Shown: one piece after another, positions 32,464 to 54,219 of the stretch
Numbering within the stretch: the first letter of the stretch is position 1
Layout of the letters: each line of letters opens with the position of its first letter
Origin: a virus
DNA: 56,098 nucleotides
Direction: 5' to 3' (one strand)
Virus record (IMG/VR): IMGVR_UViG_3300030102_007626
Span: 99,572-155,669 of that record
Made by a program: the position numbers and the translations under genes
The notes under the pieces: generated by a model
Told to the model about the DNA's origin: nothing
Seen by the model: only the letters and a program-made list of their open reading frames with translations
The model's database searches: none

Positions 32464-33213
32464 ATGATAAGTCTTGTTCAATTACTAAAAGAGTCTCAAA
32501 AAACCCCTAAAGTTATATTTATGGCTGGGCCTGCAGGAGCAGGTAAAACATATATATTAAATCAGTTAGGATTACAAAATTTTAAGGTAATTAATGTAGA
32601 TGATGTATATGAAAAATTACTTAAAGATACTTTAGGTAAAGAAGATTTTGGCTCTATGTCACCTGAAGAATTATCAACAGCGGGTAAATTAATGGGTAAA
32701 GCTAGGGTTGCTACTAAAGAAAAAGAAGCTCAAGCATTAGAAAATCTTGAAAGCATAATAATTGATGGTACAGGTGCTGCCTCAAGACCCTTACTTAAGA
32801 AAAAACAACAGTTAGAAGATTTAGGATATGATACATTTATGGTTTTAATTTATGTATCTCCTATGGTATCTTTAAAAAGAAATGCTCAAAGAGGTAGAAG
32901 TTTACCTACCTCAGCTGTTTTAGCTAGTTGGGATGGTGTAATGAAAAATATAAATTTATATAAACAAGAATTTGGTAATAATATTACTTTAATAAATAAT
33001 GATCCTGAAAATGCTGATAAGTCTTTTGATCCTAATTCTATTATAAAATTATTCCCACAACCTAAAGGCAAACCTAAAACACCAGAGGAAATGGCTAAAT
33101 CAAAAGCTAAAAAAGAACAAATAAACCAAAATATAAAAGCTCTTTTAAATGCAGAACGTGAATTTGATACTTTAAATGTAGCAAAACAAAAAATTAATGG
33201 ATTCGTTAACTAG
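32464..33213 (+). CDS. P-loop kinase, zeta-toxin-like, with (L/I)xE leader
   Basis: A 249-residue protein. Residues 1-11 (MISLVQLLKES) match the short leader shared by many genes in this cluster. A P-loop follows at GPAGAGKT (22-29). Then come a DDVYEKL segment like the substrate Asp region of zeta-type kinases, IIIDGTG (about 99-105) and RNAQRGRSLP with the sensor Arg residues. Zeta-type kinases phosphorylate small metabolites or nucleotides. The leader suggests it may be packaged in the head and delivered with DNA. It overlaps the next gene by 17 bp. Confidence 0.65.
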   Translation: MISLVQLLKESQKTPKVIFMAGPAGAGKTYILNQLGLQNFKVINVDDVYEKLLKDTLGKEDFGSMSPEELSTAGKLMGKARVATKEKEAQALENLESIIIDGTGAASRPLLKKKQQLEDLGYDTFMVLIYVSPMVSLKRNAQRGRSLPTSAVLASWDGVMKNINLYKQEFGNNITLINNDPENADKSFDPNSIIKLFPQPKGKPKTPEEMAKSKAKKEQINQNIKALLNAEREFDTLNVAKQKINGFVN

Positions 33214-36200
33214 ATCACTTATTAAAGATCTTTTACCTGAAAGTATAGAAGGTAAAGAGGTTACTGCTGTTTTTGGTGGTGGGTTTAAACCTCCTACTGC
33301 AGGCCATTTAGCTGTAATTCAAAATGCCTTAAAAGATAATCCTGAAATAGATAATATTATAATTTATGTTGGGAGTAAAGTAAGAGATGGGATTACACAA
33401 GATCAAGCATATAAAATTTGGAATGAACATTATAAACCTTTAATTGATAAACCAGTTAGAGTAGAAAAATCAGTTTCCCCAATTGGAGATATTTATAGAT
33501 ATGCTAAAGACAACCCTGAAGATTCTATATATTGGATTATAGGAGCAAGAGAAGGTAGAGAAGATGACTTACAAGATATATCAGCTAGATCAGTATCTAT
33601 AAATAAATACCCTAATTTAAATCTAAAAACAATATCTACCCCAGATGGTGGTATGAGTGGTACTAACGCTAGACAGGCATTAATAAATAATGATAAAGAA
33701 GTTTTTAAATTTTTTATACCTATTAATGCTAATCTAGATGAAATTTGGAATATTTTAACTTCAACTCCTTTAAATGAATCTGTTAAAATAGATATGAGTA
33801 AAGTTAACAAAGCTTTATTAAAGGGAATTGGAAAAGAAGATGAAACTGATGAAAATATATTATCCCTTATTGATTCACACCCACAAGGAAAAGTTTCACA
33901 TAAAGTTTTTTTAAATTTTTATGCTAAATTTGATAAATATTTTGGTGAAAAAGATGATAATAGAATTTTAGATGAAATTGGTTTAGAATATCTTCTTACT
34001 CGTGTACTAAATTTATCTCCTGAGGAAATAAGAACAGTAATGAATGATTATCAAAAAGGAAATCGTGATTTAGAAGATATAAGTTGGTTTGAAAAATATG
34101 ATACTGTACATCAAAAAGATGAAGAATGGAATCCTACTAAAGGAGAAAAATTTGATGATACCCAAGATAATGAAGCTGCTGTAAATCGTTATTTATCTAA
34201 AAATAAAAGATTACATGAAGGTGACCCTAAAAAAGGCACAGGTAAAAAACCTAAAGGATCAGGTAGACGTTTGTATACAGATGAAAATCCAAAAGATACT
34301 GTTAAAGTTAAATTTTCTACAAGACAAGATATAATAGATACTTTAAATAAAACTTCATTTAAATCTAAATCACATGCTCGACAATCTCAAATAATTAATT
34401 TAATACATCAAAGAGTAAGAGCTGCCTTAAGTAGAACAAAAGACCCCCAAAAGAAAGCTAAATTACGTTCTGCTTTTGAATATATTAAAAAACGTAAAGA
34501 AGCATCTAAGAAAAAAACTCAACGTTTAAAAAAACAAAAAACTAATGAAGCTATAGATACTAATTTTGATAAAATTAAATTCTATTATGATTATTATACT
34601 AATGTTTCTCCCTCTACTTTTGGAATTACTATAGAAGAAAACGATATTAAAATAAGTAATATTATAGAATCTTATCCTACTAATTTTGGTCCTAAAAATG
34701 TAAGACAAATTCCTGTAAACCCAAATTTAGAAGAAAACATAGACCCAAAAGCTCAAGCTAAACATAAAGGTAAAGCTGCCCCTTTTGGCTCAGCATATAA
34801 ACCTGTTAAAGAAGGTGATACTTATGAAAAAATGGCTGCTAAAGGAAAAAAAGCAGGTAGTTTAAAACAAGGTACAGTTAGAAAAAGGTTAAATATACCT
34901 AAAGATAAAAAAATCCCATTATCACTAATTAATAAAGAATTAGCCCGTTTAAGAAAAATGGATAAAGATAAAAAGAAAAAAGGGGTACAATTAGGAGATA
35001 AAAATCAAAAATATTATAAAGCACTTCAATTAGCTAAAACATTAAAAACTACAACTAATGTAAATGAAACTGGTTTAGAAATAGCTAAAAAAAATATGGA
35101 TGATTATAAAAGATCTAATCAACTAAATGAAAATGCTACATATTCTAATCATATAGACTATAAACAAGAAATTGTAGATTTAACAAAACATATGTTAAAA
35201 AAGGGCATGAATATTAAACCTTTACCTAAAGTAATATTTAAACATAATGATAAAGAAAATGCTCAAGAATTTTTAGGTAGAACTGCTTATTATAATCCTA
35301 ATAGTATGACAATAGTTTTATATACCGAAGGTAGACATCCTAAAGATATAGCTAGATCATTTGCTCATGAAATGATTCATCATATTCAAAAACTAGAAGA
35401 TAGATTAGAAAATATTACTACTACTAATACTCTTGAAGATGATCATTTAAATAATATAGAAAGAGAAGCATATACAAGAGGTAATATGGTCTTTAGAAAC
35501 TATACAGATGGAAAAGATGGAGAAGAAGTTACTAGTTTAAATGAAAATACAGGTGATTCAAACCCACTAAATTTACCACATATTGATACTTGGCATAAGG
35601 GTCAATATAAAGTAGAAGATGGAAATATTAAAGATGGAATCAAATTAATGACCCAAGCAGCAAATGAAGCTAAAAAATTAGCAAGAGAGAAACAAGATGG
35701 GGGAATTGCAGGTGAGGCAAATTATTATAAGGGCACTATTGCGTGGTTAAAAAAAGATTATAATACTGTTAAAAAATATATTAGTGATAAATTTGTTAAA
35801 TTAACAGGTAATGATGAAGTATTAAGTCGCCTTTTAAAAAATAAAGATAAATCTTATAAAGAAGCATATCATTTAAAGGAAGATAATAGTTTAAATGAAA
35901 AAGAAAAACCTTATAAACATAAACATGGATTTGATAAAAATTTAGGTAAAGACCCTTTTGGATTAAACCAGTTTGCTAGAGAATTAGCTAGTTTAGAAGA
36001 AAATGAAGATAATGAAGGTTTTCGTTCTTATAAAAGCATATTTGCTCCTCAAGTTAATATTACAATAGTTTTTAAAGAATATGATAAATATAAAGATTTA
36101 AAATCTTTATTTAAAGAATATGGGTATGGTTTTTATTCACCTAAAACTAAAACTATAATAATAGATGGTGAAGTTTTTATAGACTCTAATTTAACTTTTA

Positions 36201-36418
36201 ATGATTTAAAATTTGTTGAAGCTCATGAAATATCTCATTTAATAATGAACCATTCAGGTCCTCGTTCTGATAAGGATGAATTAGATGCGGATTTAGGAGC
36301 CTATATTTTATTAAAAAGTCAAAATTTACCTGTGGATAACTTAAAAAAACAATTTAAATTTAGACATGGAATAGAATTTAATGAAAAATTACTTGATCGT
36401 GTTAAAGATAAATTTTAA
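33197..36418 (+). CDS. multidomain polyprotein: nucleotidyltransferase plus two metallopeptidase-like domains
   Basis: A 1073-residue protein. Residues 1-15 are a leader-like helix. Residues 21-180 are a nucleotidyltransferase of the NMN/cytidylyltransferase fold, with GGFKPPTAGH (28-37) and MSGTNAR (153-159). Residues 345-445 carry the GTGKKPKGSGRRLYTDENP box and a basic helix; 515-620 a second basic module. A metallopeptidase-like domain has HEMIH (724-728) with a likely third ligand in EREAY; 790-882 look TPR-like; a second has HEISH (1010-1014) and DELDAD, ImmA/IrrE-like. (L/I)xE sites separate modules: LNE 192, LHE 339, LEE 511, LNE 643, LNE 781, LNE 899, LEE 933. I infer processing by the prohead protease. 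Confidence 0.7.
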   Translation: MDSLTRSLIKDLLPESIEGKEVTAVFGGGFKPPTAGHLAVIQNALKDNPEIDNIIIYVGSKVRDGITQDQAYKIWNEHYKPLIDKPVRVEKSVSPIGDIYRYAKDNPEDSIYWIIGAREGREDDLQDISARSVSINKYPNLNLKTISTPDGGMSGTNARQALINNDKEVFKFFIPINANLDEIWNILTSTPLNESVKIDMSKVNKALLKGIGKEDETDENILSLIDSHPQGKVSHKVFLNFYAKFDKYFGEKDDNRILDEIGLEYLLTRVLNLSPEEIRTVMNDYQKGNRDLEDISWFEKYDTVHQKDEEWNPTKGEKFDDTQDNEAAVNRYLSKNKRLHEGDPKKGTGKKPKGSGRRLYTDENPKDTVKVKFSTRQDIIDTLNKTSFKSKSHARQSQIINLIHQRVRAALSRTKDPQKKAKLRSAFEYIKKRKEASKKKTQRLKKQKTNEAIDTNFDKIKFYYDYYTNVSPSTFGITIEENDIKISNIIESYPTNFGPKNVRQIPVNPNLEENIDPKAQAKHKGKAAPFGSAYKPVKEGDTYEKMAAKGKKAGSLKQGTVRKRLNIPKDKKIPLSLINKELARLRKMDKDKKKKGVQLGDKNQKYYKALQLAKTLKTTTNVNETGLEIAKKNMDDYKRSNQLNENATYSNHIDYKQEIVDLTKHMLKKGMNIKPLPKVIFKHNDKENAQEFLGRTAYYNPNSMTIVLYTEGRHPKDIARSFAHEMIHHIQKLEDRLENITTTNTLEDDHLNNIEREAYTRGNMVFRNYTDGKDGEEVTSLNENTGDSNPLNLPHIDTWHKGQYKVEDGNIKDGIKLMTQAANEAKKLAREKQDGGIAGEANYYKGTIAWLKKDYNTVKKYISDKFVKLTGNDEVLSRLLKNKDKSYKEAYHLKEDNSLNEKEKPYKHKHGFDKNLGKDPFGLNQFARELASLEENEDNEGFRSYKSIFAPQVNITIVFKEYDKYKDLKSLFKEYGYGFYSPKTKTIIIDGEVFIDSNLTFNDLKFVEAHEISHLIMNHSGPRSDKDELDADLGAYILLKSQNLPVDNLKKQFKFRHGIEFNEKLLDRVKDKF

Positions 36419-36420: not shown

Positions 36421-36966
36421 ATGGCTAATTTATTTGATCTATATAAACTAATTAAAGAAAATGATGTATCTGCGTATACTATCTATTTAGATATGGATGG
36501 TGTAATAGCTGATTTTGATCAACGATTTTTAGATTTATCTGGAATGACCCCAAACGAATATAGAGATAAATATGGTATGAACCAATTTTGGGATTTTATA
36601 GATGAAGAAAATAAAGTCAGATTTTGGGCAGGCATACCTGTAATGCCTGGGGCTAAAAAATTAATAGATTACGTTTCACAATATGATTATGAGATACTAA
36701 CTGCCCCTTCTATTAAAAAACAATCTAGGTTAGGAAAAATGGTATGGTTGCGTAAAATTCATTCTAATTTATTTCCTGATACACCAAAAGTAAATTTTAA
36801 ATTTGCTAAAGAAAAACATCAAGTAAAACCAACTCTTACTAAAACAGATATTCTTATAGATGATAGAGCAAGTACTATAGATACTTGGAATTCTTCTGGT
36901 GGAACAGGAATATTATATACATCAGCAGATGATGCTATTCAACAACTAAAAAAATTAGGATTATAA
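36421..36966 (+). CDS. HAD-type deoxynucleotidase-like protein with leader
   Basis: A 181-residue protein. Residues 1-13 (MANLFDLYKLIKE) are the (L/I)xE leader. The HAD core follows: DMDGVIAD (24-31, nucleophile Asp24), ILTAPS (92-97, motif II), Lys-containing segment RLGKMVWLR, and LIDDRASTIDTW (145-156, motif III). This matches the 5'(3')-deoxyribonucleotidase group, which dephosphorylates nucleoside monophosphates. It could recycle host nucleotides or adjust pools. It shares one base with the next gene (TAATG). The leader suggests delivery with the virion. Confidence 0.75.
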   Translation: MANLFDLYKLIKENDVSAYTIYLDMDGVIADFDQRFLDLSGMTPNEYRDKYGMNQFWDFIDEENKVRFWAGIPVMPGAKKLIDYVSQYDYEILTAPSIKKQSRLGKMVWLRKIHSNLFPDTPKVNFKFAKEKHQVKPTLTKTDILIDDRASTIDTWNSSGGTGILYTSADDAIQQLKKLGL

Positions 36967-37538: not shown

Positions 37539-37569
37539 TATTACTTTCCTGTAATATGTATTAGTCTTA

Positions 37570-37580
37570 TATATTTATAA
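37570..37580 (+). promoter_or_regulatory. TATATTTATAA motif (candidate late element)
   Basis: Exact TATATTTATAA, 14 bp before the start at 37595. Confidence 0.55.
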
Positions 37581-37594
37581 TAAAATATTTTAAA

Positions 37595-38374
37595 ATGAAA
37601 GATAACTTTAATTTAAAGAAATTTTTAAAGGAAAATAAAACCATTGAAAATTCAAATCCTTATTTAAAAGAAGAAAAAGAAATATCAAAAAAAGAAGAAA
37701 AATCTCTTAAAAAAATTTCTAAACAATTAAAAAAATCAGTTAAAGCACATGGAGTGCAAGCTAAAACTATTGATAAAGCTTTAAAAGAAGAATCAACAGA
37801 CCTTAAATCTAAAATTCGTGAAATGATTATTAACGAATTAAGTGAAGAAATGGATCCTGAACTAGATTATGAAGGTACAAGTGAAGAAGAAATGTACGGT
37901 GATTATATAGATGATGAAGAATCTTACTACCCACATTTAGAAGAAATGGGAGAGCCTGAAGATGAAGAATCCCCTGAAATGGATGAATATGAAGATTCAT
38001 TATCACAACAAATGGATGCAGATGAATATGAAACATATGCTGATGCTTTTAGTAGCATGCCATTTGAAGAATCTTTAGACGAAGCTAAAGAAGATGAAGA
38101 TGAAATAGAAACTGATGAACCCGAAGACACAGAAGAAGTACCTGAAGAAGAAGAAACTGAAGAAACTGAAGAAACAGAAACTGAAGAAGAACCTAAAACT
38201 GGAGGTGGATTAGAAGATATAGCTGCTGATATGGAAGGTGATGAAGGTGATCTTATGGACCACTTAATATCAGCTTTAAAAGTATCTAAAGGAATGGACA
38301 ACGAAAAACTTACTACTCAAATAGGAAACACCTTAAAATTCTTTGTAGGTGAGTATATTGGAGGAGAAGAATAA
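37595..38374 (+). CDS. very acidic protein, possible prohead core component
   Basis: A 259-residue protein. Residues 1-14 (MKDNFNLKKFLKEN) are the leader type; a Lys-rich helical part follows (40-75), then a long Glu/Asp tract (about 85-200, including EEVPEEEETEETEETETEEE) and a helical end (DHLISALKVSKGMDNEKL). Highly acidic, protease-degraded core proteins are a feature of T4 proheads (gp67/gp68 type), which fits the context, but homology is not claimed. Starts a new unit behind a late-type motif. Confidence 0.6.
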   Translation: MKDNFNLKKFLKENKTIENSNPYLKEEKEISKKEEKSLKKISKQLKKSVKAHGVQAKTIDKALKEESTDLKSKIREMIINELSEEMDPELDYEGTSEEEMYGDYIDDEESYYPHLEEMGEPEDEESPEMDEYEDSLSQQMDADEYETYADAFSSMPFEESLDEAKEDEDEIETDEPEDTEEVPEEEETEETEETETEEEPKTGGGLEDIAADMEGDEGDLMDHLISALKVSKGMDNEKLTTQIGNTLKFFVGEYIGGEE

Positions 38375-38399
38375 AATAAAATCTATAAAAATAAAAACT

Positions 38400-38570
38400 A
38401 TGAATTTAAATGAAATTATTGAAGCTATTAAAGAACAAGTAGTAGCTTTAGAAGCTGAAAACGAAAAAACAACAAAAGTCTCACGTACACGTGCACGTAG
38501 AGCAGCTAATAAAATTAAAAAATTAGCAGCTGAGTTTAAAAGAACTTCAACTGCTGAAGATAAAGCTTAA
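38400..38570 (+). CDS. small basic protein, histone-like
   Basis: A 56-residue protein starting MNLNEIIEAIKEQ. An in-frame ATG at 38349 overlaps the preceding gene by 26 bp and is less likely. After the (L/I)xE-like N-terminal helix comes a basic helix (KVSRTRARRAANKIKKLAAE) like those of small histone H1-type proteins of bacteria. It could bind packaged DNA. Followed 1 bp later by the next gene. Confidence 0.6.
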   Translation: MNLNEIIEAIKEQVVALEAENEKTTKVSRTRARRAANKIKKLAAEFKRTSTAEDKA

Positions 38571-38571
38571 T

Positions 38572-39450
38572 ATGAAGCAATTAACCAATGAAGCGTTCTC
38601 TCCTGAGGAATCCAAAAAAATATATGACAATTTTTTGGCTATAATTGGAACTCGGAGAGATAAATTGGTTAAAGACCATGGCCCTGAAGCCGAAAACGTA
38701 GCATATGCTACAGCTGTTAACCAAGTTAAAAAACAAGCAGAAAAAAAACCTATGGAAAAAGAAATTGAAGAAGGCACTTGTGGGTATGGAATAGATGGTA
38801 AAATAGGGAATAAACCAGCTGGTCCAGATATGTTAGTAATTAGACTTAAAGAAATGGTCAAAGACGCCTTAAAAAAACCATTAAAAGAAAAAATGGATCC
38901 TGTTGGAAAAGAGGATAAAGACATTAATAATGATGGAAAGGTAGATAAAACTGATGATTATTTAATGAATAGAAGAAAAGCTATTGGAAAAGCAATGCAA
39001 AAAGAAGATGTTGATGTAGGCCACACAGACGATGAACCAGGTATGTTAAAAGCAGATTTATATCGTATTGGAAAATATGCTATGGAGCTTTATAAAATGG
39101 TTGATAAGTTTGATGAAATGGATAGTGAAGTAGACTTTCCACATTGGTGGCAATCAAAAATTACTAAGTCAAAAGGTATGTTAGTTTCTGCAAAACATTA
39201 TCTTGATTTTGAAATGAAAGAACCTCAAATTGATGCAATGGTAGATGTCGCGAGTGAGGAAGGAATAATTGATGAAAAACTTAAACCATCTATGGGTGTA
39301 GGAGCATATATAGATGATTTTAAAGATTCTAAAGCACCACAATTTAAAGGTAAATCTAAAAAGAAAAAACAAGAAATGGCTGTAGCAGCTTATTTATCTA
39401 CGAAAGATAAAAAAAAAGTAGCTGAAGCTATATTTAATAAACTTAGATAA
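38572..39450 (+). CDS. virion-type protein with dockerin/EF-hand-like loop
   Basis: A 292-residue protein assembled from boxes seen in many marine T4-like phages. There is an N-terminal helix, then an EF-hand-like calcium loop DINNDGKVDKTD (117-128) followed by DYLMNRRKAIGKAM. Next comes VGHTDDEPGMLKADLYRIGK (about 147-166) with FPHWWQSKITKSKGM, and a final APQFKGKSKKKKQEMAVAAY (264-283). These mosaic boxes suggest a virion-associated, protease-processed protein. Coupled by TAATG to the next gene. The function of each box is not known to me. Confidence 0.65.
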   Translation: MKQLTNEAFSPEESKKIYDNFLAIIGTRRDKLVKDHGPEAENVAYATAVNQVKKQAEKKPMEKEIEEGTCGYGIDGKIGNKPAGPDMLVIRLKEMVKDALKKPLKEKMDPVGKEDKDINNDGKVDKTDDYLMNRRKAIGKAMQKEDVDVGHTDDEPGMLKADLYRIGKYAMELYKMVDKFDEMDSEVDFPHWWQSKITKSKGMLVSAKHYLDFEMKEPQIDAMVDVASEEGIIDEKLKPSMGVGAYIDDFKDSKAPQFKGKSKKKKQEMAVAAYLSTKDKKKVAEAIFNKLR

Positions 39451-39923
39451 TGACTAAAGAAGCACTACAAAGTAGATTAAAGATTTTAATTAAACAGGTG
39501 TATGCTAATAAAACCATTACACCTGAGGAAGCTGTTCAATATGATGAACTAACTAAGTTTCCTGAATTAAAAGCTGTTATTGTAGATCTTTTAACACCTG
39601 AATATGATAACTTTGTAGCTTCAATTGATTGGGTTGCACCACGTCCTTCTACATTTAGAATTAATCTAAAAAATGATCAACTGTTTTACTTAATTTATGG
39701 TAAAAGAAGTTTTATAGCTCAAATTGAAGGTAAAAAATATTACCTATTAAACCTCCCAGAAGAACAACACGCTGCTGAAGCAATAGCTCGTATTTTAAGA
39801 TTTGGAGTTAAACCTGAAAAAGGAGCAGAAGATGACATGAGTGGAGATTTAGCAACTGAAGAACCACCAGCTGAAGAACCAGCAGCTGAAGAACCAGCAG
39901 GAGAAGAAGACACAACGGCTTAA
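39450..39923 (+). CDS. internal-cluster protein with acidic Pro/Ala tail
   Basis: A 157-residue protein. A helical N-terminal part (LQSRLKILIKQVYANK) precedes a compact alpha/beta domain (SIDWVAPRPSTFRINLKND, FYLIYGKRSFIAQIEGKKYY). It ends with a repetitive tail (EEPPAEEPAAEEPAGEED). I recall the domain from marine T4-like phages near head genes; function unknown. Confidence 0.65.
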   Translation: MTKEALQSRLKILIKQVYANKTITPEEAVQYDELTKFPELKAVIVDLLTPEYDNFVASIDWVAPRPSTFRINLKNDQLFYLIYGKRSFIAQIEGKKYYLLNLPEEQHAAEAIARILRFGVKPEKGAEDDMSGDLATEEPPAEEPAAEEPAGEEDTTA

Positions 39924-39927
39924 TAAT

Positions 39928-40653
39928 ATGAAATTAACTATAAAACATATTAATAATACTTTAGGAGTAGATACTATTTTTTTAAATGAAAATAACTATA
40001 CTTCTATAGAAACAATTCAATTAATAAAAGAAGAACAATTATTATATGAAACTTTTTTAAAAACTGTTAAAAGTTTTGCAAAAGAAAAACTTAATAAAGC
40101 TGTTGATACTATAAAAGATTGGAAAGATGCTGCTGTTGTTTTTTCTAAAATTTTATCTAATGGAGAACTTTTAAATGATTTTTTATACCCATTAGAACGT
40201 TTAGTACAAAAACAACTTAAAAAATTATATGACGTACTTGAAAAAATAAAATTAAATTCTATAGTTACAAAAATAAAAGGATTTTTTAAAAAAATAGCAA
40301 GTCTTAAAGGATGGAAAAAATTATTTACTTTAATAGCTTTGGGTGGAGTAGCTTTTTATGCCTCTACAAAACTTCCTTTAGATGGTGTAAAAAAATGGAT
40401 AACAGATACTGTTGGACCTGATTTTATTGAAACTATTACCTCTAAATTAGTAGATTGGAAATCTTATATAGGATTTATAGGTCCTATAGTAGGGGGAGGA
40501 GCTATAATATTTAAACTTTTAGAACCTTTATTAACTAAATTTAAAGAAGCATTAAAAAGTAGTAGTTATTTTGCTACTAAAATAATTAAAGAAAATAAAA
40601 AAAGAATTTTAAAACAGCTTATTCGAGAAGAAATATTTAAAACTTTATCATAA
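39928..40653 (+). CDS. membrane-interacting protein with C-terminal LIREE tag
   Basis: A 241-residue basic, helical protein. Two hydrophobic segments lie at about 130-147 (LFTLIALGGVAFYAS) and 180-199 (YIGFIGPIVGGGAIIFKLL). The C-terminus KENKKRILKQLIREEIFKTL is a match to the leader peptides that other proteins of the cluster carry at the N-terminus, so here the tag seems to be C-terminal. If packaged, it could act on the host membrane during DNA entry; this is inference. Confidence 0.55.
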   Translation: MKLTIKHINNTLGVDTIFLNENNYTSIETIQLIKEEQLLYETFLKTVKSFAKEKLNKAVDTIKDWKDAAVVFSKILSNGELLNDFLYPLERLVQKQLKKLYDVLEKIKLNSIVTKIKGFFKKIASLKGWKKLFTLIALGGVAFYASTKLPLDGVKKWITDTVGPDFIETITSKLVDWKSYIGFIGPIVGGGAIIFKLLEPLLTKFKEALKSSSYFATKIIKENKKRILKQLIREEIFKTLS

Positions 40654-40654
40654 C

Positions 40655-41098
40655 ATGGAAAATTTTGATTTAAAAAAGTTTATAACAGAAGGTAGATTAT
40701 ATGAGGCAGCAATGGCTTGTCCTACTGCTACTCAAAACCTTGAATTAAATACCAAAAATAGAGATGCTTCTATCCAAGCAGAATACATTCAATATGGTCC
40801 ATTAAATGTAGATGAACCAGGTGACTATTGGAAAGATATAGCTGAATATTGGAATACAACAGAAGAAGCAGCTAAAAAATCATTATGTGGTAATTGTGTT
40901 GCATTTGATATTTCTCCTAGAATGGATGAATGTATGCCTGGCCAAACATCAGATGAAGATGGGAGATTAGGATATTGTTGGATGCACCATTTTAAATGTC
41001 ATTCTGCAAGAAGTTGTAGAACTTGGGCTAAAGGTGGTCCTATCACAAAAGATAGTGTATCTTATGATTGGCAAGAAAGAAATGCAGACAAAGTATAA
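40655..41098 (+). CDS. cysteine-rich protein with leader, marine-phage family
   Basis: A 147-residue protein. Residues 1-12 (MENFDLKKFITE) are the leader. It has seven Cys (22, 78, 81, 93, 108, 115, 121), and the pattern CGNCVAFD, GYCWMHHFKCHSARSC is conserved in proteins I recall from cyanophages and other marine T4-like phages. The spacing suits a metal or iron-sulfur site, but no cofactor is proven. It overlaps the next start by one base. Confidence 0.65.
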   Translation: MENFDLKKFITEGRLYEAAMACPTATQNLELNTKNRDASIQAEYIQYGPLNVDEPGDYWKDIAEYWNTTEEAAKKSLCGNCVAFDISPRMDECMPGQTSDEDGRLGYCWMHHFKCHSARSCRTWAKGGPITKDSVSYDWQERNADKV

Positions 41099-42594
41099 TG
41101 GACGTTTTAGATAAATTTTTATATAGTATAGCTTATAAGTTTCCTAAAGGATATCCTGACATGAACAATGAACAGGATATTTTAATGTTAGAAAACATAT
41201 TAAAGGAAAAATTTGACATTATACTTGAAGTTAGCAATTTAACTAAAAGTGAATTAATAAAATATAAAAACAATCCCTCAAAAGATAGAATTTCAATACT
41301 AATAAAAAAAATTCAAAGTAATGAAGAATTAGAATTAGTAAATGGAGATACTTTTATAGTAGATAATAAAGAAGAAGCTATTAAAAATCTTCAGGGTGAA
41401 ATACCTTCATTAGGTGTAGAACTAATTGATAAAGATGGGAATAAAATTAAAACATCAAAATTAAGAAAAACAAAAGAATTTGGAGGAAAAGATGCGGTTA
41501 GTACAGACGCTAAAAAACCAGTAGTAGATACTGAAGTTAAAGAAAGTTTAGTTATTGTATTTTATAACATTTTAAAAGAAGGAGGTAATTTAAAACCTTT
41601 TGATGTTGAAAATTATACTAACAATTTTAAAATAATAAATTCTTCCTCAAATAAATTCAATGATGTAGAAAGTAGTGCCCAAGAAAAAATAAATCAATTA
41701 TTTAATTTAATAGGTGATACTACAACCCCTTTATCTAAAGTTAGAAGTGTTTTAAATAATCCTTACTCAATTGCTTTAGAATTATATGAAGATTACCCCA
41801 ACGCTAAAGCTAATAGAGGAGAATTATTTGATAGTATTAGATCAACATGTTCTAAAATAACAAACCTCCCAGCTGATAAGTGGAATCCAGGTGATATTTA
41901 TTTAGTAAATTCAACACCAAAATTACCAACGGAAACAGATTCAATTGTACCTTGGAATGAATTATTTGTAAATGAATGGGGTAACACAGATGCTCCTTTA
42001 GTTTCTATTTCATTAAAAGAAGAAAAATACCAACCAGGAAGAGCAAAATCATACCTAGAAAAATTCGGGGATGTAATTGATTATAATATGTCATCTGAAG
42101 AATTTGAATACACAGATAAACAATATAAAGAAGCTATTAGAAATTATAGAAAGAACATAATTGATTATTTTGATAATAGTCAACCTGTAAAACTTGAAGG
42201 AGATGGTTGGGAAAATTTACCATCAGATAAAAAACAATTACAAGCTAAATATGGTGCTTACAAATTGTTAAATTTATTAGCAAGAAAAAATGATGCTTCT
42301 CTTTCAGGTTTATTTTCATATGGTTTATCTATTGATCAAGATGCTAAAGCTAACCCCACTTTTTGGAAATTGATAGGTAAAAATAATGGCAGTAAAGCAG
42401 GAAAAATAAAATATCCATCAGGAGTTAATACTGAAATGGCTAAAGGAGAAGATATAGTAATAACAGACAGTTCTAAATCTGGAGGTTTTACAATTAAAGG
42501 TGTTTTAGCCAAAACAGATGGAGACAGTATTGATACAGAACCAGTCAAATTATCATTTAGAACCTCAGGGACTGGGCAGGTTCAAATTGTTTAA
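41098..42594 (+). CDS. large internal-cluster protein with nuclease-like motif
   Basis: A 498-residue protein starting MDVLDKFLYS. An earlier in-frame ATG at 41068 overlaps the previous gene by 31 bp; 41098 gives the one-base overlap usual here. The segment KWNPGDIYLV (261-270), then VSISLKEEKYQPGRAK (302-317), resembles the D...(E/S)xK arrangement of some PD-(D/E)XK nucleases and of phage proteins with a KWxPxDI...SLK signature. A nuclease fold is therefore possible but unproven. The start lacks a clear (L/I)xE leader. Confidence 0.6.
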   Translation: MDVLDKFLYSIAYKFPKGYPDMNNEQDILMLENILKEKFDIILEVSNLTKSELIKYKNNPSKDRISILIKKIQSNEELELVNGDTFIVDNKEEAIKNLQGEIPSLGVELIDKDGNKIKTSKLRKTKEFGGKDAVSTDAKKPVVDTEVKESLVIVFYNILKEGGNLKPFDVENYTNNFKIINSSSNKFNDVESSAQEKINQLFNLIGDTTTPLSKVRSVLNNPYSIALELYEDYPNAKANRGELFDSIRSTCSKITNLPADKWNPGDIYLVNSTPKLPTETDSIVPWNELFVNEWGNTDAPLVSISLKEEKYQPGRAKSYLEKFGDVIDYNMSSEEFEYTDKQYKEAIRNYRKNIIDYFDNSQPVKLEGDGWENLPSDKKQLQAKYGAYKLLNLLARKNDASLSGLFSYGLSIDQDAKANPTFWKLIGKNNGSKAGKIKYPSGVNTEMAKGEDIVITDSSKSGGFTIKGVLAKTDGDSIDTEPVKLSFRTSGTGQVQIV

Positions 42595-42604
42595 ATATTT
42601 ATAA
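42594..42604 (+). promoter_or_regulatory. AATATTTATAA motif next to a start codon
   Basis: AATATTTATAA overlaps the previous stop codon and ends 2 bp before the ATG at 42607. The spacing is too short for an ordinary -10 element. Confidence 0.4.
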
Positions 42605-42606
42605 AC

Positions 42607-43287
42607 ATGTCACGATTAACAAATTTAATAAAAGAAGTATTATCTACTAAACCAAAAGAAAAGGAAGGTTGTGATTGTGGATGTGGAGGATGTAGTAAAC
42701 CAACTTTTAAAGGTGTAATGCTAAATGAAAGTAAAGCTCCTAAACAAATACTATCGGAAAATCTGCAATATCACGTGCAAAATAAATTACCACTAACCGA
42801 AAACACATTCCGTTATGGTTCCGAATCTTTCCTTAATTTATGGCAAGAAGCACGTTATTTATATTTACGTGAAATTATTCATGTAAATGATGATGATAAA
42901 GAAATTTTAGAAGAAACTGATTTAGGTAACTATGGAATGTATGAAGGTAAAAAAGTACCTTTAGGTTTACCTATGGAAAATATAGTTAATGAAGCAGCTA
43001 AAACAAAAAAGAAAAAAGACCCACCAATTGGTAAACCAAAACGTGGTGGACCTAAGGCATATTATGTTTATGTTAGAGACCCTAAAACCAAACGTATTAA
43101 AAAAGTTACATTTGGTTCTGGTGGACTAAAAGCAAAAATTAATAACCCTAAAGCAAGACGAGCTTTTTCAAAAAGACACAATTGCCCTAATAAAAAAGAT
43201 AGAACAAAAGCATCATATTGGTCTTGTAGACTACCTCGCTATGCTAAATTGTTAGGTTTAAAATCATCCTTTAGTGGATTTTGGTAA
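42607..43287 (+). CDS. leader-bearing protein with Cys cluster and basic marine-phage domain
   Basis: A 226-residue protein. Residues 1-12 (MSRLTNLIKEVL) are the leader. A Cys cluster CDCGCGGC (22-29) and (L/I)xE sites LNE 39, LSE 49 and LTE 63 follow. The C-terminal domain (from about 140: KPKRGGPKAYYVYVRDP, KKVTFGSGGLKAKI, FSKRHNCPNKKDRTKASYWS) is a basic module I recall in many marine T4-like phages and presume to be virion-associated. The layout suggests removal of the N-terminal part by the prohead protease. Confidence 0.65.
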   Translation: MSRLTNLIKEVLSTKPKEKEGCDCGCGGCSKPTFKGVMLNESKAPKQILSENLQYHVQNKLPLTENTFRYGSESFLNLWQEARYLYLREIIHVNDDDKEILEETDLGNYGMYEGKKVPLGLPMENIVNEAAKTKKKKDPPIGKPKRGGPKAYYVYVRDPKTKRIKKVTFGSGGLKAKINNPKARRAFSKRHNCPNKKDRTKASYWSCRLPRYAKLLGLKSSFSGFW

Positions 43288-43288
43288 A

Positions 43289-43597
43289 ATGGAAAGATTA
43301 AAATTAAAACAACTTATTAAAGAAGAAGTTTATAAAGTATTAAATGAAGGAATATTTTCAAAAAAAGAATATCCTCTTTATACAATAGAAGATTCTAATG
43401 ACAGTTTTTTTAGATATGTTAAGAATAAACATGGGCTTGAAACTAATATAAATTATATTACAATAAACCCTCTTTCTTATGATAGTTTTACAGATCGTAA
43501 AAAATTAAAAGGGTATTATTCTATTCATACTAAAAAAGGAGTAAATGTTTATAAAATTCCTTCTGAATTTAAAGAATATGCCCATAAAGAAATGTAA
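43289..43597 (+). CDS. small leader-bearing protein
   Basis: A 102-residue protein. The start at 43289 (MERLKLKQLIKEEVYKVLNE) is preferred to an in-frame ATG at 43274, because it restores the leader and avoids overlap. The rest is a small beta-prone domain (YPLYTIEDSNDSFFRYV, LKGYYSIHTKKGVNVYK). The leader ends with LNE at residue 17-19, a candidate cleavage site. It is followed directly by another gene with nearly the same first residues. Confidence 0.65.
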   Translation: MERLKLKQLIKEEVYKVLNEGIFSKKEYPLYTIEDSNDSFFRYVKNKHGLETNINYITINPLSYDSFTDRKKLKGYYSIHTKKGVNVYKIPSEFKEYAHKEM

Positions 43598-44032
43598 ATG
43601 GAAAGATTAAAAAAAATAATTAAAGAAGTTCTTACTGAAAAGAAGAAAAAACGAGACCGATGTTTACGTATTGCTGATCGTAAATTTGACAAACCCTCTG
43701 CCTACAAATCAGGTGCTGTAGTTAGATGTAGAAAAGGTAAAATTTGGAAAGGTATAAAAGAAGAACAAATACACGAAATTATTAAAGAATCTTTACGTGA
43801 TTGGTTTAAAAAAGAAAAATGGGTACGTATTAACACCTCAGGTAATATAACTGGACCTTGTGGTACAATGAAAAAAGGTAAAGCTACAACCCGTTGTTTA
43901 CCTAAAGCCAAAGCTCAATCTTTAACTAAAGCTGAAAGAAAATCTACTGTAGCTAAAAAAGTTAGAGGAGGTAAAAAAGGTAAACAGTTTGTAAAAAATA
44001 CTAAAAAAGCTCAATATAAAAAAAAGTCTTGA
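43598..44032 (+). CDS. small very basic protein with leader, probable DNA-associated virion protein
   Basis: A 144-residue protein with pI clearly basic. The leader MERLKKIIKEVLTE is followed by a Cys/Arg/Lys-rich domain (DRCLRIADRKFDK), a second leader-like segment (EIIKESLRDWFKKEKW) and a basic tail (RGGKKGKQFVKNTKKA). The WFKKEKWVRI-type box is one I remember from marine phages. It could bind packaged DNA. The stop TGA overlaps the TTG start of the next gene. Confidence 0.65.
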   Translation: MERLKKIIKEVLTEKKKKRDRCLRIADRKFDKPSAYKSGAVVRCRKGKIWKGIKEEQIHEIIKESLRDWFKKEKWVRINTSGNITGPCGTMKKGKATTRCLPKAKAQSLTKAERKSTVAKKVRGGKKGKQFVKNTKKAQYKKKS

Positions 44033-44289
44033 AACCCTACACTGATATAAAAGTTACAGATTCCTATATTATTCGTGAATTTTCTGAAAATATAGATCCA
44101 ATAGAATTGTTATGGCATCGTGATGATGAAGATCGAACTTTAGAAATCCTTGGAAAAACAAATTGGAAAATACAACTTGATAATGAATTGCCAACTTCAT
44201 TAAATGGTCCTATATTTATACCAAGACACCATTGGCATCGTGTTATAAAAGGAGATAATAAATTAAAATTAAAAATATATAAAAAATGA
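44029..44289 (+). CDS. small cupin-like protein, TTG start
   Basis: An 86-residue protein that appears to start with TTG at 44029, coupled to the previous stop (TTGA). No ATG lies nearby in frame. ELLWHRDDEDRTLEIL and GPIFIPRHHWHRVIKGD look like the two metal-binding halves of a small cupin, with His residues in both. Small cupins often bind a metal and a small ligand. Similar short proteins occur in marine phages as I recall. It overlaps the next gene by 4 bp. Confidence 0.65.
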   Translation: MKPYTDIKVTDSYIIREFSENIDPIELLWHRDDEDRTLEILGKTNWKIQLDNELPTSLNGPIFIPRHHWHRVIKGDNKLKLKIYKK

Positions 44290-46466
44290 TATTAGATTGG
44301 AAAAATTTTGTATTACGAAGTGATATAAAAAACTTACCTTTAGAAGAACAGAGAAGAAAATTTTTAAAAGAACAGTTGTATCATGATAATCTTTTAAGTG
44401 AGCAAAAGCAGAGACAATATGAATTTTATATGTCTCAAATGCAACCTAAAGGAGGGGCTAGTGGAGCTGGTTTTTCAGGTATAGGTGTTGATGGTCCTAT
44501 AGTAGGAGCAACAGTAGTTTCAAATGTAGGAACTACAATCACAAATACAGCAGGAGAATTTACATTTGTATCTACACCAACTGGTCCTATAACATTGACA
44601 GGTGGAAAAGATGCAATAACCGGAGTAGATTTCGAAGGAGAACTAGTAGGATTCCCACAATATAAAACCATATCTCCCATCACAACATTTGCACATTATC
44701 TTCAACAAGCTGATGCAGAAATAAATAAATCACCAATGACTATTGATGAAGCTATTACAAAAACTTTTGAAAGTTCATCTGTATTTTTTGGTGTTGAAAT
44801 ACCTTTAGAAAAAAAAGATGTTATTCTTCAAAAAGATTTCGTACGAGAAGCAATTGAAAACAACAACAAAGTAGGAATATCGGCTCAAGCAGTAACAACA
44901 CAAATTGAAGCAATAGCTGAAACCGTTGGAGCAAGTTTAGCAGGATCATTTACACAACAAGATTTTACTAAAAAATTCGGTAAAGCTGGTGAAATACCTC
45001 AATTTAGACCAGAAAACAGAAAACGAACTGCGTACGCTGCACTAGGCCGATCTGTTTTAGATAGAGGGGATATAAACATAGAAAAAGTAGTAGACAAAAT
45101 TAAATATGTTAATCCAATTACTGGAAACGACAAAAATGATACGATTAGATTTGGTAATCTTAAAAGACTACAAGATCAATTAACATCAACAATTGCTGAA
45201 ACTAGAACATTAGCTAGATCAGAACAATTTACTAATAATTATCTTACCACAAGAATACAAGCGCTGAACAGAGCACAAAAAACTACTATTAAAAATGAAG
45301 CAGCTACAGCTGTAGCAGGTGGAACAGCTTTTTCTAATATACAAACAGTATCAACATCTACAGCAAATTTCAATGGATTATCAAGAATTGAAAAAGGTAA
45401 AGCCAATGAAACCACAGAGCAACTTGATAAACCAAATGATTGGCCAAGCGCTGGTACATTTACCCAAGAACGATTTAATACTTACGAAAAAACAACTTTT
45501 CAAGAAAAATTAAGATTTAGAGAAGGCGCTATAGTATCTAATTACAAATATTTTGGTGATGTTAAAGACAACCCAATGTTGCAAAAAGAGGGACTTAAAA
45601 ACACATTTATACCAGCCTCTTTTGACGCAGCTGCAAATAATGAGTTTGGACCACTTAACTCAGACAGAATATTTGCAAAATCTCCATTAACACATACTAC
45701 AGAAAGTGTAGATGATGCTACTGGTCGTGTTACAACACAGACTACAATATTTAGACCATTTGTTCTCGAACAAGAACGTGGTGAAACACCTACTAAAGTA
45801 GGATTACGCCTATCAAGTCTAACTACTTCAGTTACACAACCTAAAAACACAGTAGAACATTTAGTACAACTAGGCGGAGACTATACAGGTACTCTTACAA
45901 CAAATGGTAAAACAGAAACTATATTCGCAATTGAAAGTGGTCTTACTGGTCCTAAAGCAAATCCAATTATACATTTAGATGTAATAATGGCAAAAGGTGC
46001 CACAGCTGCATTTCGATTACAGCCGGCTAAACGATCAGGAACTTTTGAGTTAGTAGATCTTAATGATAGTAATAAAATTGTGGCAACAAATCTTAGTTTT
46101 GTAAGTGATAGACTGACTGCAAAATTCAGCGGCCCTAAAGGAGCCAATAAAGAATTATTTATTAAATTTGCCTTAACTCAACATATCGATGCAACAAAAA
46201 CATATGTTATATCTACATTAGGTATTGCTTCAAAAACTATTACTCCTCAAATAGGAAAAGGTGGTCAAGTCTCACTCCCGAAATTTGAATATAACAAATT
46301 AGACATTGAGATTGGATACCGAGTTAATGATGGTGCTAACTCAACATTTGACGTAGTAAATGGCGGTAAGTTTCCTCCAGTAGCTACTGGTATACAATTT
46401 ATCAATGACCGATTAACGTTTACTATTGACGGAAAAGAATACGTCGTTACTGTTAATCCTATATAA
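44286..46466 (+). CDS. large structural-type protein with carboxypeptidase-regulatory-like domain
   Basis: A 726-residue protein. A charged N-terminal helix (LEEQRRKFLKEQLYHDNLLS) is followed by a Gly-rich hinge and a beta domain, VDGPIVGATVVSNVG with NTAGEFTFVST (about 68-100). This matches the carboxypeptidase-regulatory/SpaA-like type. The middle is helical and the C-terminal third is beta-rich. Codon choice differs by eye from its neighbours (more C-ending and CGA codons). It could be a virion surface or internal scaffold protein. It has no leader. Family unknown. Confidence 0.6.
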   Translation: MILDWKNFVLRSDIKNLPLEEQRRKFLKEQLYHDNLLSEQKQRQYEFYMSQMQPKGGASGAGFSGIGVDGPIVGATVVSNVGTTITNTAGEFTFVSTPTGPITLTGGKDAITGVDFEGELVGFPQYKTISPITTFAHYLQQADAEINKSPMTIDEAITKTFESSSVFFGVEIPLEKKDVILQKDFVREAIENNNKVGISAQAVTTQIEAIAETVGASLAGSFTQQDFTKKFGKAGEIPQFRPENRKRTAYAALGRSVLDRGDINIEKVVDKIKYVNPITGNDKNDTIRFGNLKRLQDQLTSTIAETRTLARSEQFTNNYLTTRIQALNRAQKTTIKNEAATAVAGGTAFSNIQTVSTSTANFNGLSRIEKGKANETTEQLDKPNDWPSAGTFTQERFNTYEKTTFQEKLRFREGAIVSNYKYFGDVKDNPMLQKEGLKNTFIPASFDAAANNEFGPLNSDRIFAKSPLTHTTESVDDATGRVTTQTTIFRPFVLEQERGETPTKVGLRLSSLTTSVTQPKNTVEHLVQLGGDYTGTLTTNGKTETIFAIESGLTGPKANPIIHLDVIMAKGATAAFRLQPAKRSGTFELVDLNDSNKIVATNLSFVSDRLTAKFSGPKGANKELFIKFALTQHIDATKTYVISTLGIASKTITPQIGKGGQVSLPKFEYNKLDIEIGYRVNDGANSTFDVVNGGKFPPVATGIQFINDRLTFTIDGKEYVVTVNPI

Positions 46467-46489
46467 AATTTGAATAATACAAAATAATT

Positions 46490-47221
46490 ATGAAAAATTT
46501 AAAACAAATAATTAAAGAAGAAATTAAACGTATCTTAAGTGAAGATATTGAAGAGGCATACCAGCTATTTAATTTAAACCCTAAACAACCTGAAATAGAC
46601 CCGGATAGGGGAGAAAGGGACCCACAAGATAGTTATATTTATTTAAAACCAAGTACTGAAAAATTACTTAAAAGAAACCAACATATAAGAGTTTTAAGAA
46701 AACCTGAAACACCTGATGTAATTTCTGGGGTTGCTATCCGTTCTACTTTATTAGAACCCCAAAACATGAAAAGATTACCTTATGATATTAATCCAATGTT
46801 TAAAAGATTTTTAAGTACTGCTAATAATATTGGAGGGAAAATAACTTTACCTACAAGAGATACAGGTCCTGAGGATTATACAATTCTTAATAATGTTAAT
46901 ATTGGTAGAGAAGGAAGACTTTCATTTTTTGTCCCAAATCCTAAAAAAAAATTAAATGAACATGGAGCAGGAAGAACTCCTGCAATTAGAGGTATGGTAA
47001 ATATGTTATTTAAAGATGAAAGAATGACTGATGCTCCTTTAGCATTAGTTAAAGCATTAAATCTTTTAGATGATAAAACAGCTCAAGAACTTAATTTTAA
47101 AGTAGCAGAATATCTAAAACCTACTTTTAGTTCAGACCCTAACTCTCCTTCAAACACTGCTGCTATTAAAGCAATGATTGATATGGATAAAGAAAAAGGT
47201 AGAAGACCTAGTTTAGACTAA
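46490..47221 (+). CDS. leader-bearing internal-cluster protein
   Basis: A 243-residue protein. Residues 1-19 (MKNLKQIIKEEIKRILSED) are the best match to the consensus leader, with IKE and LSE sites. The rest is alpha/beta, without recognisable motifs; a Pro/Asp/Arg-rich stretch (PEIDPDRGERDPQD) follows the leader, and a potential LNE site sits at KKKLNEHGAG. It ends before a strong terminator at 47274, closing the transcription unit. Confidence 0.6.
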   Translation: MKNLKQIIKEEIKRILSEDIEEAYQLFNLNPKQPEIDPDRGERDPQDSYIYLKPSTEKLLKRNQHIRVLRKPETPDVISGVAIRSTLLEPQNMKRLPYDINPMFKRFLSTANNIGGKITLPTRDTGPEDYTILNNVNIGREGRLSFFVPNPKKKLNEHGAGRTPAIRGMVNMLFKDERMTDAPLALVKALNLLDDKTAQELNFKVAEYLKPTFSSDPNSPSNTAAIKAMIDMDKEKGRRPSLD

Positions 47222-47273
47222 CATACAGACTGATTCATAGCCAGTCGAATTTAAATAAAAATTTTTTAGAGCT

Positions 47274-47307
47274 GTGGCCTAATCTTTGGATTAGGTCACT
47301 TTTTTTA
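47274..47307 (+). terminator. strong intrinsic terminator
   Basis: GTGGCCTAATC (47274-47284) pairs with GATTAGGTCAC (47289-47299), 11 bp with one G-U pair and a 4-base loop, followed by eight T. Confidence 0.85.
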
Positions 47308-47333
47308 TTATATTAATGTATTAAAATTTATAA

Positions 47334-48623
47334 ATGGATAAAATAGTAATTGTAGGAGCAGGTGTAGCAGGTATTAATGCTGCAACTAAATTAGTAGATA
47401 ATGGATATCCTGGTGATAAAATCACTATAATTGATATGGGTAAAGACCCATATAACAGATTACCTGAAGAAGTAATGACAGGAATGTTAGGTGCAGGTGG
47501 TTGGAGTGATGGTAAATTAACTTATCATACTGAAGTAGGAGGTCAATTATCAAAATATTGTGGTAAAGATAAAGCAATGGAATTGTTTGATCAAATTATA
47601 GCTAATTTTAAACGATTTCACCCCAAACCAGAAGAAGTACAATGTTCTGATCCTCAAGCAGAACCTGATTTTATTAAACCATATTTTGGTTTAAAATTGT
47701 TTCCTGTTTGGCATGTTGGTACAGATTATTTACACGAAATAGGTAAAAACTGGTATGATTATTTAGTTAGTAAAGGTGTTGAATTTATTTGGGAAACTAA
47801 AGTTACTAATATTGATTTTAAAGATCAAATGGTATCTATAGGAGCAGTAGATGAAATGCAATATGATAAACTTATCTTTGGAGTAGGTAAATCAGGGATT
47901 GATTTTGGTAAAGCATTAGCTGAAGAATATAACTTACCAACCGAACCAAAAGCAGTACAAATAGGTGTACGATTTGAAGCTCCACAAAAACATTTTCAAA
48001 AATTAATAGATATTAGTTATGATTTTAAATTATATAAAAAGTTTGAAGATAAAGGTGTATCATTACGTTCATTCTGTACAAACAATAACGCCGCTTATGT
48101 TGCTGCGGAACATACTTATGGCGATGTAAGTTATAATGGACATGCTAAAAAAGATGAAGCATATCGAAATGATATGACTAATTTTGGTATACTAATGGAA
48201 ATTAGAGGTATAGATAAACCATTTGATTGGTCAAGAGAAGCAGTTAAAAAATTACAGATTGATGGTGTAGGTACATATTATTCACCAAGCAACAGAACAC
48301 CATCTAAAACCTCAGAAGGTGACTCTGTTAAATGTATTACAGTAGGTAGTATGGAACCTTTATTTGATGCATTAGGAGAATATGCCCAATACATAGAAGA
48401 TTTTATTACAGAAATGGAAATTGTATTTCCTACACTTGGAGATGATTGGGGTATTTATATGCCTGAAGTAAAATATTTGTCACCTGAACCATTAGTAAAT
48501 TATCAAGATCTTAGTCTAAATGATTATCCTAACGTATATTTCGTAGGAGATGCTTTAAGTGCAAGAGGTATAACAGTTTCAGGAGCACAAGGTACTTATG
48601 TTGCTGAATCAATTTTAAAATAA
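47334..48623 (+). CDS. FAD-dependent oxidoreductase, COG2509-like
   Basis: A 429-residue flavoprotein. The N-terminal dinucleotide-binding motif is IVIVGAGVAGINAA (GxGxxG at 8-13); then GAGGWSDGKL (53-62) matches the GAGxxSDGKL signature of the uncharacterised COG2509 FAD-dependent dehydrogenases. The C-terminal NVYFVGDALSARGITVSGAQ completes FAD binding. The substrate is unknown. It sits alone after a terminator, with AAATTTATAA just before the ATG, and is followed by a kinase, so the pair may be auxiliary metabolic genes. Confidence 0.8.
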   Translation: MDKIVIVGAGVAGINAATKLVDNGYPGDKITIIDMGKDPYNRLPEEVMTGMLGAGGWSDGKLTYHTEVGGQLSKYCGKDKAMELFDQIIANFKRFHPKPEEVQCSDPQAEPDFIKPYFGLKLFPVWHVGTDYLHEIGKNWYDYLVSKGVEFIWETKVTNIDFKDQMVSIGAVDEMQYDKLIFGVGKSGIDFGKALAEEYNLPTEPKAVQIGVRFEAPQKHFQKLIDISYDFKLYKKFEDKGVSLRSFCTNNNAAYVAAEHTYGDVSYNGHAKKDEAYRNDMTNFGILMEIRGIDKPFDWSREAVKKLQIDGVGTYYSPSNRTPSKTSEGDSVKCITVGSMEPLFDALGEYAQYIEDFITEMEIVFPTLGDDWGIYMPEVKYLSPEPLVNYQDLSLNDYPNVYFVGDALSARGITVSGAQGTYVAESILK

Positions 48624-48628
48624 AAAAT

Positions 48629-49159
48629 ATGAAAATAGGGTTTTGTGGTACAATGAGTGTAGGTAAAACAACGTTAGTTAATGCGTTAAAAGAATTACCT
48701 GAATTTAAAGGTTATAAATTTGCTACTGAGCGTAGTGAATATTTAAGGGATTTAGGTATTCCTTTAAATACTGACTCTACAATTAAGGGTCAATTAATAT
48801 TTTTAGCAGAACGATCTTCTGAATTATTACAAGAAAATATTATAACAGATAGAACAGTAATAGATGTTATAGCATTTACTAAATCAGCTAAATCAATTTC
48901 ATGGACTGAGGCAAAACAATTTCAATCATTAGCTGAAAATTTAATTAATGATTATGACTATTTATTTTATGTTTCTCCTAAAGGGGTAGAATTAGAAGAT
49001 AATGGGGTTAGAACAATAGACATAGAATATCGAAAAGAAATTGATAACACAATAAAATATATAATTGGAGATAAATTAGGTAAACATCCTAAATATACAG
49101 AAATATCGGGTTCTACCGAGGAAAGAATAAAAAAAATCAAACAAACAATATTTCATTAA
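48629..49159 (+). CDS. P-loop nucleotide/NadR-type kinase
   Basis: A 176-residue ATPase with P-loop GTMSVGKT (7-14). Further features are RSEYLRDLGIPLNTD, the Asp-Arg of IITDRTVIDVIAFT (about 72-85) and a DYDYLFYVSP segment, all typical of the AAA_28/NadR-like kinases that phosphorylate nucleosides or ribosyl-nicotinamide. The polyprotein at 33197 carries a nucleotidyltransferase of the same NAD-salvage type, so the two might cooperate; this is inference. Coupled to the FAD gene with a 5-bp gap. Confidence 0.75.
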   Translation: MKIGFCGTMSVGKTTLVNALKELPEFKGYKFATERSEYLRDLGIPLNTDSTIKGQLIFLAERSSELLQENIITDRTVIDVIAFTKSAKSISWTEAKQFQSLAENLINDYDYLFYVSPKGVELEDNGVRTIDIEYRKEIDNTIKYIIGDKLGKHPKYTEISGSTEERIKKIKQTIFH

Positions 49160-49168
49160 TATTTATAA
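49158..49168 (+). promoter_or_regulatory. AATATTTATAA motif (candidate late element)
   Basis: AATATTTATAA overlaps the previous stop and lies 18 bp before the start at 49187; the next bases also create TATAAATA on the + strand. Confidence 0.5.
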
Positions 49169-49186
49169 ATAAATAAAAATATACAA

Positions 49187-49987: not shown

Positions 49988-49988
49988 T

Positions 49989-52291: not shown

Positions 52292-52301
52292 AAAATAAAA
52301 A

Positions 52302-54209: not shown

Positions 54210-54219
54210 TAAATTTTTA

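Follow-up and report, generated by a model that had tools for sequence, protein, structure and literature searches.

A predicted head-targeted cassette polyprotein with prohead-protease-type sites at its module borders in a tailed phage

Why does a phage genome carry biochemically disparate domains, nucleotidyltransferase-like, basic and zincin-like, on a single chain, and does that chain stay whole? The question is raised by an open reading frame (ORF) in the window, the 56,098-nucleotide stretch of DNA analysed here, which covers positions 99572-155669 of the 155,669-base virus record IMGVR_UViG_3300030102_007626 (G000). The window phage is T4-like, with a host probably in the Bacteroidota; its nearest named relative, judged by the polyprotein ORF, is Flavobacterium phage immuto. 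A preliminary description had proposed that (L/I)xE motifs between the domains of this 1073-residue protein could allow a phage head protease to split it after packaging. The ORF is present as described, on the + strand at 33197-36418, in a clean frame that starts with ATG. From sequence comparison, we consider it probable that it encodes a head-targeted cassette polyprotein of internal cargo, which a gp21-type protease would cut, before the DNA is packaged, into some ten products. Its features are as follows, with a slash at each module border.

33197..36418, + strand: polyprotein ORF, 1073 residues, ATG start
33197..33241, + strand: residues 1-15, N-terminal leader MDSLTRSLIKDLLPE/S, similar to a capsid-targeting sequence, with LPE13
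33242..33778, + strand: module A, residues 16-194, nucleotidyltransferase-like, with GGFKPPTAGH, ending LNE/S
33779..34219, + strand: module B, residues 195-341 (from alignment), no function assigned, ending LHE/G
34220..34549, + strand: module C, residues 342-451, basic, ending TNE/A, a weak site or non-site
34550..34735, + strand: module D, residues 452-513, ending LEE/N
34736..34813, + strand: module F, residues 514-539, basic peptide of 26 residues, ending VKE/G, the junction with H
34814..35068, + strand: module H, residues 540-624, basic, ending VNE/T
35069..35131, + strand: module I, residues 625-645, peptide of 21 residues, ending LNE/N
35132..35545, + strand: module J, residues 646-783, first HExxH zincin-like domain (HEMIHH ... 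ExEA), ending LNE/N
35546..35899, + strand: module K, residues 784-901, the "TPR-like" segment, holding LKE893 and ending LNE/K
35900..36001, + strand: module L, residues 902-935, peptide of 34 residues, ending LEE/N
36002..36415, + strand: module M, residues 936-1073, second HExxH domain (HEISH)

The chain holds 13 (L/I)xE motifs: LPE at 13, LDE at 180, LNE at 192, LDE at 258, LHE at 339, IEE at 479, IIE at 489, LEE at 511, LNE at 643, LNE at 781, LKE at 893, LNE at 899 and LEE at 933. All seven sites reported earlier (192, 339, 511, 643, 781, 899 and 933) are present, and each of the four LNE motifs stands at a border as had been stated. That list omitted the leader site LPE13, the non-border motifs at 180, 258, 479 and 489 and the border-adjacent motif at 893, and its (L/I)xE rule missed three borders with another residue at P3 (TNE449, VKE537 and VNE622). 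P3 of the site rule must also admit V or M. Not every module border is a protease site, and the TNE449 joint is uncertain. Compared with shuffles of the same protein, LNE was in excess (4 against 0.47 expected, p 0.0005), as was [LI]xE before a small or polar residue (9 against 3.4, p 0.0045).

We then compared the protein with its relatives. Scanning IMG/VR yielded 228 confirmed stretches, from which 80 loci were kept (L002-L081), and a second scan with module J gave at least 586 confirmed stretches. The relatives are not colinear; 50 complete relative ORFs, built from about 20 module types, show 46 different module orders. In the closest relatives, cassette loss runs from site to site and leaves a single LNE each time (L002, L006 and L010). 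In L006 and L010, residues 195-341 are absent as a block, and LNE192 joins the module that follows LHE339 in the window protein; module B is missing as a whole in L006, L010 and L011. Likewise, module K (784-901) is missing as a whole in L002, L006 and L010, with LNE781 and LNE899 merged into one LNE. Module M is swapped for module N in L002 and L010, and relatives carry extra cassettes, including a plastocyanin-type copper domain, a zinc ribbon, a nucleotidase, a kinase, a Pol-beta-type nucleotidyltransferase and ART-like domains. The preliminary description had suggested comparing site positions in relatives and had named sites that are not conserved while domains are as the refuting outcome. 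The comparison showed that the sites mark cassette boundaries across 46 architectures and that P3 and P1 are kept at the borders; the reading was thus not refuted.

The association of motif and border was measured at borders defined by homology only, i.e., positions where homology among 65 non-redundant proteins starts or stops, with the motif counted within 4 residues. [LIVM]xE was found at 310 of 813 such borders, whereas circular shifting gave an expectation of 113±9.5 and no more than 145 in any of 1000 shifts. LxE was found at 187 of the 813 against 51 expected; [LIVM]xD, [LIVM]xK, [LIVM]xS and [FYWAG]xE were at or close to expectation at the same borders. Seven modules start right after [LIVM]xE in 51 of 52 unrelated upstream contexts (C 9/9, H 7/7, J 17/17, N 4/4, O 5/5, S 2/2 and E 7/8). 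In a hold-out set for module J, made up of previously unused junctions from the second scan, the motif was present at 36 of 36 among the matches listed. Across the joint columns, L, I, V or M at P3 and Glu at P1 are conserved and P2 and P4-P6 are variable; at module H junctions, P3 was I, V or L and P1 was E in 15 of 15. The P3 residue is spelled with TTA, CTT, CTA, ATA, GTA, ATT or GTT, and TTA-AAT-GAA is the commonest spelling of the motif. Because the P3 and P1 residues are kept while the P3 codons vary, selection acts on the amino acids. To judge by these columns, the joint pattern is of a protease type at the protein level and not a DNA repeat.

Module interiors gave the complementary picture. 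Measured on fixed module cores, as a version based on high-scoring segment pairs was biased by leaving out borders, [LI]xE stood at 0.43 of expectation (module-averaged) and [VM]xE at 0.65, against 1.13-1.26 for controls. Tail and metabolic (non-head) proteins of the same phage stood at 1.1-1.2 of expectation. Such avoidance inside modules should be expected of a chain exposed to a protease of this kind.

A protease with matching specificity is encoded in the same genome, in a gene separate from the polyprotein ORF.

G000 1402-2034, just past the contig joint: gp21-type protease gene
G000 3833-5521, just past the contig joint: major capsid protein gene

The protease belongs to the gp21-type prohead proteases (S77; PF03420, E 6e-26; ELDHP/SSRG), and its gene lies just upstream of the scaffold and capsid genes. 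The gene was found in 15 of 22 relative records, including all records longer than 62 kb. T4 gp21 cleaves after L/I-x-E, with Asp at P1 preventing processing, and works in the prohead before DNA packaging (PMC9026906). Site conservation and the presence of this gene back the earlier proposal of splitting by a head protease, whereas its timing has to be corrected, as cutting would precede packaging rather than follow it (PMC9026906).

From these observations, we propose the following course. The N-terminal leader would direct the entire chain to the core of the prohead, in the manner of T4 capsid-targeting sequences, and at module borders the gp21-type protease would cleave behind the Glu of [L/I/V]-x-E: at LPE13, LNE192, LHE339, VKE537, VNE622, LNE643, LNE781, LNE899 and LEE933, and less surely at LEE511 and TNE449. 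The approximately ten predicted products would comprise one nucleotidyltransferase-like enzyme and two zincin-like HExxH domains, along with basic modules and short peptides. Once released, they would remain with the DNA and presumably enter the host by ejection. On the evolutionary scale, cassettes are exchanged at the LxE joints.

The module names were only partly backed by profile searches. Module A matched PF01467 at E 0.021, under the cut-off, and its closest relative, in L006, matched the cytidyltransferase family phrog_3041 at 9e-12; a PDB search with this nucleotidyltransferase module gave no matches. Module M matched phrog_87 (metalloprotease) at 4e-6 and, below threshold, PF06114 at 0.0022. 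The first HExxH domain, module J, had weak zincin matches only (M91, M76 and MPTase-PolyVal), with PF18818 (MPTase-PolyVal) in 13 of 55 J modules at a best E of 0.0072, and a PDB profile search with it returned chance matches only. The TPR label of module K had no hidden Markov model support in profile searches. Two cassettes of the relatives deserve separate mention. A plastocyanin/azurin-type copper-binding cassette stands between LxE joints in L006, L020, L027 and L029 (PF00127, 2e-17 in L006). ART-like cassettes (GPQFGVLYHFTQ...) occur in the polyproteins of L014, L028, L007, L064 and L049, with an ART-PolyVal match of 1e-4 in L049, which suggests host-modifying cargo.

Among named phages, the module assembly was found only in immuto, whose laboratory host is Flavobacterium sp. 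LMO8; in phiM12 and Melnitz the modules stand singly and lack clean borders. The homologue of the window polyprotein in immuto is immuto26A_183 (MW353175 / NC_055915, L001 14164-16887, 907 residues). It contains a Pol-beta-like module, a nucleotidyltransferase and the HExxH modules J and N, and several joints carry xxE, for example VMAE/GRYDTVTNR and VKE/GSSGTPIQPSG; its module set, U-A-J-N, differs from that of the window protein. It is annotated as nicotinamide mononucleotide adenylyltransferase, a single enzyme, although the protein has at least four modules and this domain is only one of them.

Many genes around the polyprotein ORF carry leaders of a similar kind.

32464..33213, + strand: Zeta-like P-loop kinase gene (PF06414, 5e-11), leader MISLVQLLKE/S
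36421..36966, + strand: NT5C-type nucleotidase gene (phrog_2643, 1e-27; PF06941, 1e-7), leader MANLFDLYKLIKE/N
37595..50351, + strand: series of ORFs, of which many have a short leader with LxE at its end (for example MKDNFNLKKFLKE/N at 37595, MENFDLKKFITE/G at 40655 and MKNLKQIIKE/E at 46490), candidate head cargo and core proteins
50708..54209, + strand: large terminase and portal genes

Leaders of relatives of the polyprotein read MNQLTKFLVDGILNE/G and similar. One leader type, MxNFDLKKYLAEN, stands on 18 unrelated cargo clusters in the window phage and related phages. Genome-wide, an N-terminal LxE was found in only 41% against 24.5%; as this excess is weak, leaders were judged by shared type and not by count. 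The kinase homologue at L061 3317-4138 has an FDYKKYISEG-type leader, MKDFDYKKYISEG, in place of the usual MISLVQLLKE, an instance of leader swapping. The kinase is a separate gene in the window and a fused first module in L022 and L030, and the nucleotidase is a separate gene in the window and a C-terminal polyprotein cassette in most relatives. By this comparison, genes and cassettes interconvert at LxE. With LxE borders as exchange points, phages gain, lose, fuse and rearrange cassettes and turn neighbouring leader-bearing genes into modules. Outside the polyprotein, window genes 38572-39450 and 39450-39923 correspond to one gene of 841 residues in immuto (L001 21039-23564), joined at LQE/VLE motifs, which is again a conversion of gene to cassette. 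The core protein upstream of gp21 (window 55547-56098, continued in L083 1-1392) has an apparent tandem duplication of 118 residues with LAE as first residues; because the two copies meet where the contigs end, this duplication may be an assembly overlap. No T4-type late promoter was found for the polyprotein gene; TATAAATA, about 7 bases 5' of the kinase start, is too close. A sequence common to window 37525-37594 and 54180-54249, TATATATTTATAA, lies 5' of two leader-bearing or head genes and is a possible promoter element.

Several observations weigh against the cleaved-polyprotein interpretation. The total of (L/I)xE motifs in the window protein is at chance (13 against 11.6 expected, p 0.37, by the same shuffles); the raw count is uninformative because the shuffled protein gives as many. 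The border at 511, listed earlier among the sites, is not a conserved one: LEE occurs in the window protein only, and relatives mostly have KxE, so this border may stay uncut. Module F is preceded by KxE in all five contexts, with [LIVM]xE upstream in 0/5, which makes LEE511 a local feature. Joints between C and D are often TNE, and only 25 of 47 fusions of the NT5C module show the motif a short way upstream. The average behind the interior depletion covers few modules, with little or none in the nucleotidyltransferase, NT5C and E modules, and the neighbouring leader-bearing genes show no interior LxE depletion; some of these may be core proteins destined for shredding. The N-terminal leader is lacking in 9 of 44 complete relatives, hence leader-based targeting is not universal. 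In addition, some predicted products have only 21-34 residues, and the module functions are drawn from weak profile matches, except in relatives.

Could the protein instead be a polyvalent protein, i.e., a multi-domain effector packaged or ejected as one chain, with processing, if any, by its own zincin domains? Its disparate domains, the one to four HExxH motifs in each of the 50 complete relatives and the weak MPTase-PolyVal and ART-PolyVal matches agree with this explanation, and Iyer et al. proposed self-processing by zincins (PMC5512222). The MPTase-PolyVal zincin is not obligatory in polyvalent proteins and occurs in about 36% of the set. We regard the polyvalent explanation as unlikely, since the borders fit gp21 specificity and not any known zincin specificity and since LxE borders also occur in leaders of single-domain genes and in neighbouring multi-module proteins without HExxH (L052_7545-9746, L026_7252-9027 and L012_9408-10244). 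It is less likely still that the joints are relics of gene fusion, old leaders that now act as linkers and are no longer cut. Clear fusions with neighbouring genes do keep a complete leader in the chain, as in the kinase fusions of L022 and L030, where the nucleotidyltransferase leader is retained as ELTQFLVDSILNE; however, the remainder of the leader has usually been lost, P3 and P1 are nevertheless conserved amid variable surroundings, and LxE is avoided inside modules, whereas relics would decay.

An unpackaged cytoplasmic multi-enzyme, with LxE as a habit of flexible linkers, seems very improbable: the gene adjoins primase-, exonuclease- and kinase-like genes and some relatives lack the leader, as this explanation would have it, but a linker habit leaves the Glu specificity at P1, the interior avoidance and the match to gp21 unexplained. 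The exact exchange of cassettes at borders and the prevalence of one spelling would also suit DNA recombination sites at which a shared DNA word merely happens to encode LNE. Given seven P3 codons, a free P2 and a constraint that concerns nothing but the residue class of P3 and P1, we give this explanation the least credence of all.

Tailed-phage prohead proteases are known for propeptide trimming and scaffold clearing. The T4 internal head proteins IPI, IPII, IPIII and Alt have capsid-targeting sequences and are cut by gp21 (PMC9026906). The system described here shares with them a short leader ending in L/I-x-E, a gp21-type protease, one leader on unrelated cargo and a plastic cargo repertoire. 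The T4 proteins yield one mature protein per gene, whereas here up to ten modules share one leader, with internal sites between them; the window ORF departs from that pattern, with about ten predicted products and conserved border sites. The T4 core proteins gp22, gp67 and gp68, which gp21 fragments (PMC9026906), likewise hold many gp21-type sites per chain, but their cuts mostly yield debris that leaves the head, whereas the sites here lie between conserved domains of an enzyme-like kind, whose interiors avoid them. In phiKZ and SPN3US, many head and inner-body proteins are also processed by the prohead protease after a short x-x-E (PMC10052503); those cuts strip N-terminal propeptides, sometimes in several pieces, and do not give several mature proteins per chain. 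Polyvalent proteins, which phages and conjugative elements encode (Iyer et al. 2017, PMC5512222), similarly combine disparate domains in an injected-type protein, including zincins, ART and Pol-beta-type nucleotidyltransferases, and shuffle freely; in them, processing by the embedded zincin was proposed, whereas the motif at the borders here is that of a prohead protease outside the chain. Usual RNA-virus polyproteins encode their own protease within the chain, in contrast to the separate gp21 homologue here. In its predicted workings, the system resembles the targeting of T4 internal proteins and their processing by gp21, but in polyprotein form. The preliminary description called such a strategy untypical of tailed phages; no description of a phage polyprotein cut by a prohead protease was found in the open-access papers searched.

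Likely cutting sites stand at most joints, and module shuffling at them in relatives suggests that the cargo is packed as a cuttable polyprotein. Slightly more guardedly than for the ORF itself, we think it likely that this is a polyprotein strategy of tailed phages, in which one leader carries many modules, the prohead protease frees functional proteins, the sites are universal exchange joints and each phage has a near-unique payload. If true, prohead proteases would do what proteases do in polyprotein viruses, giving several functional proteins per chain, and the fast variation of injected cargo in T4-like phages would be explained. A reading rule that places a cut behind each border [LIVM]xE would split hundreds of giant ORFs now called hypothetical or misnamed into real proteins. 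The arrangement also suggests a modular route for loading proteins into phage heads.

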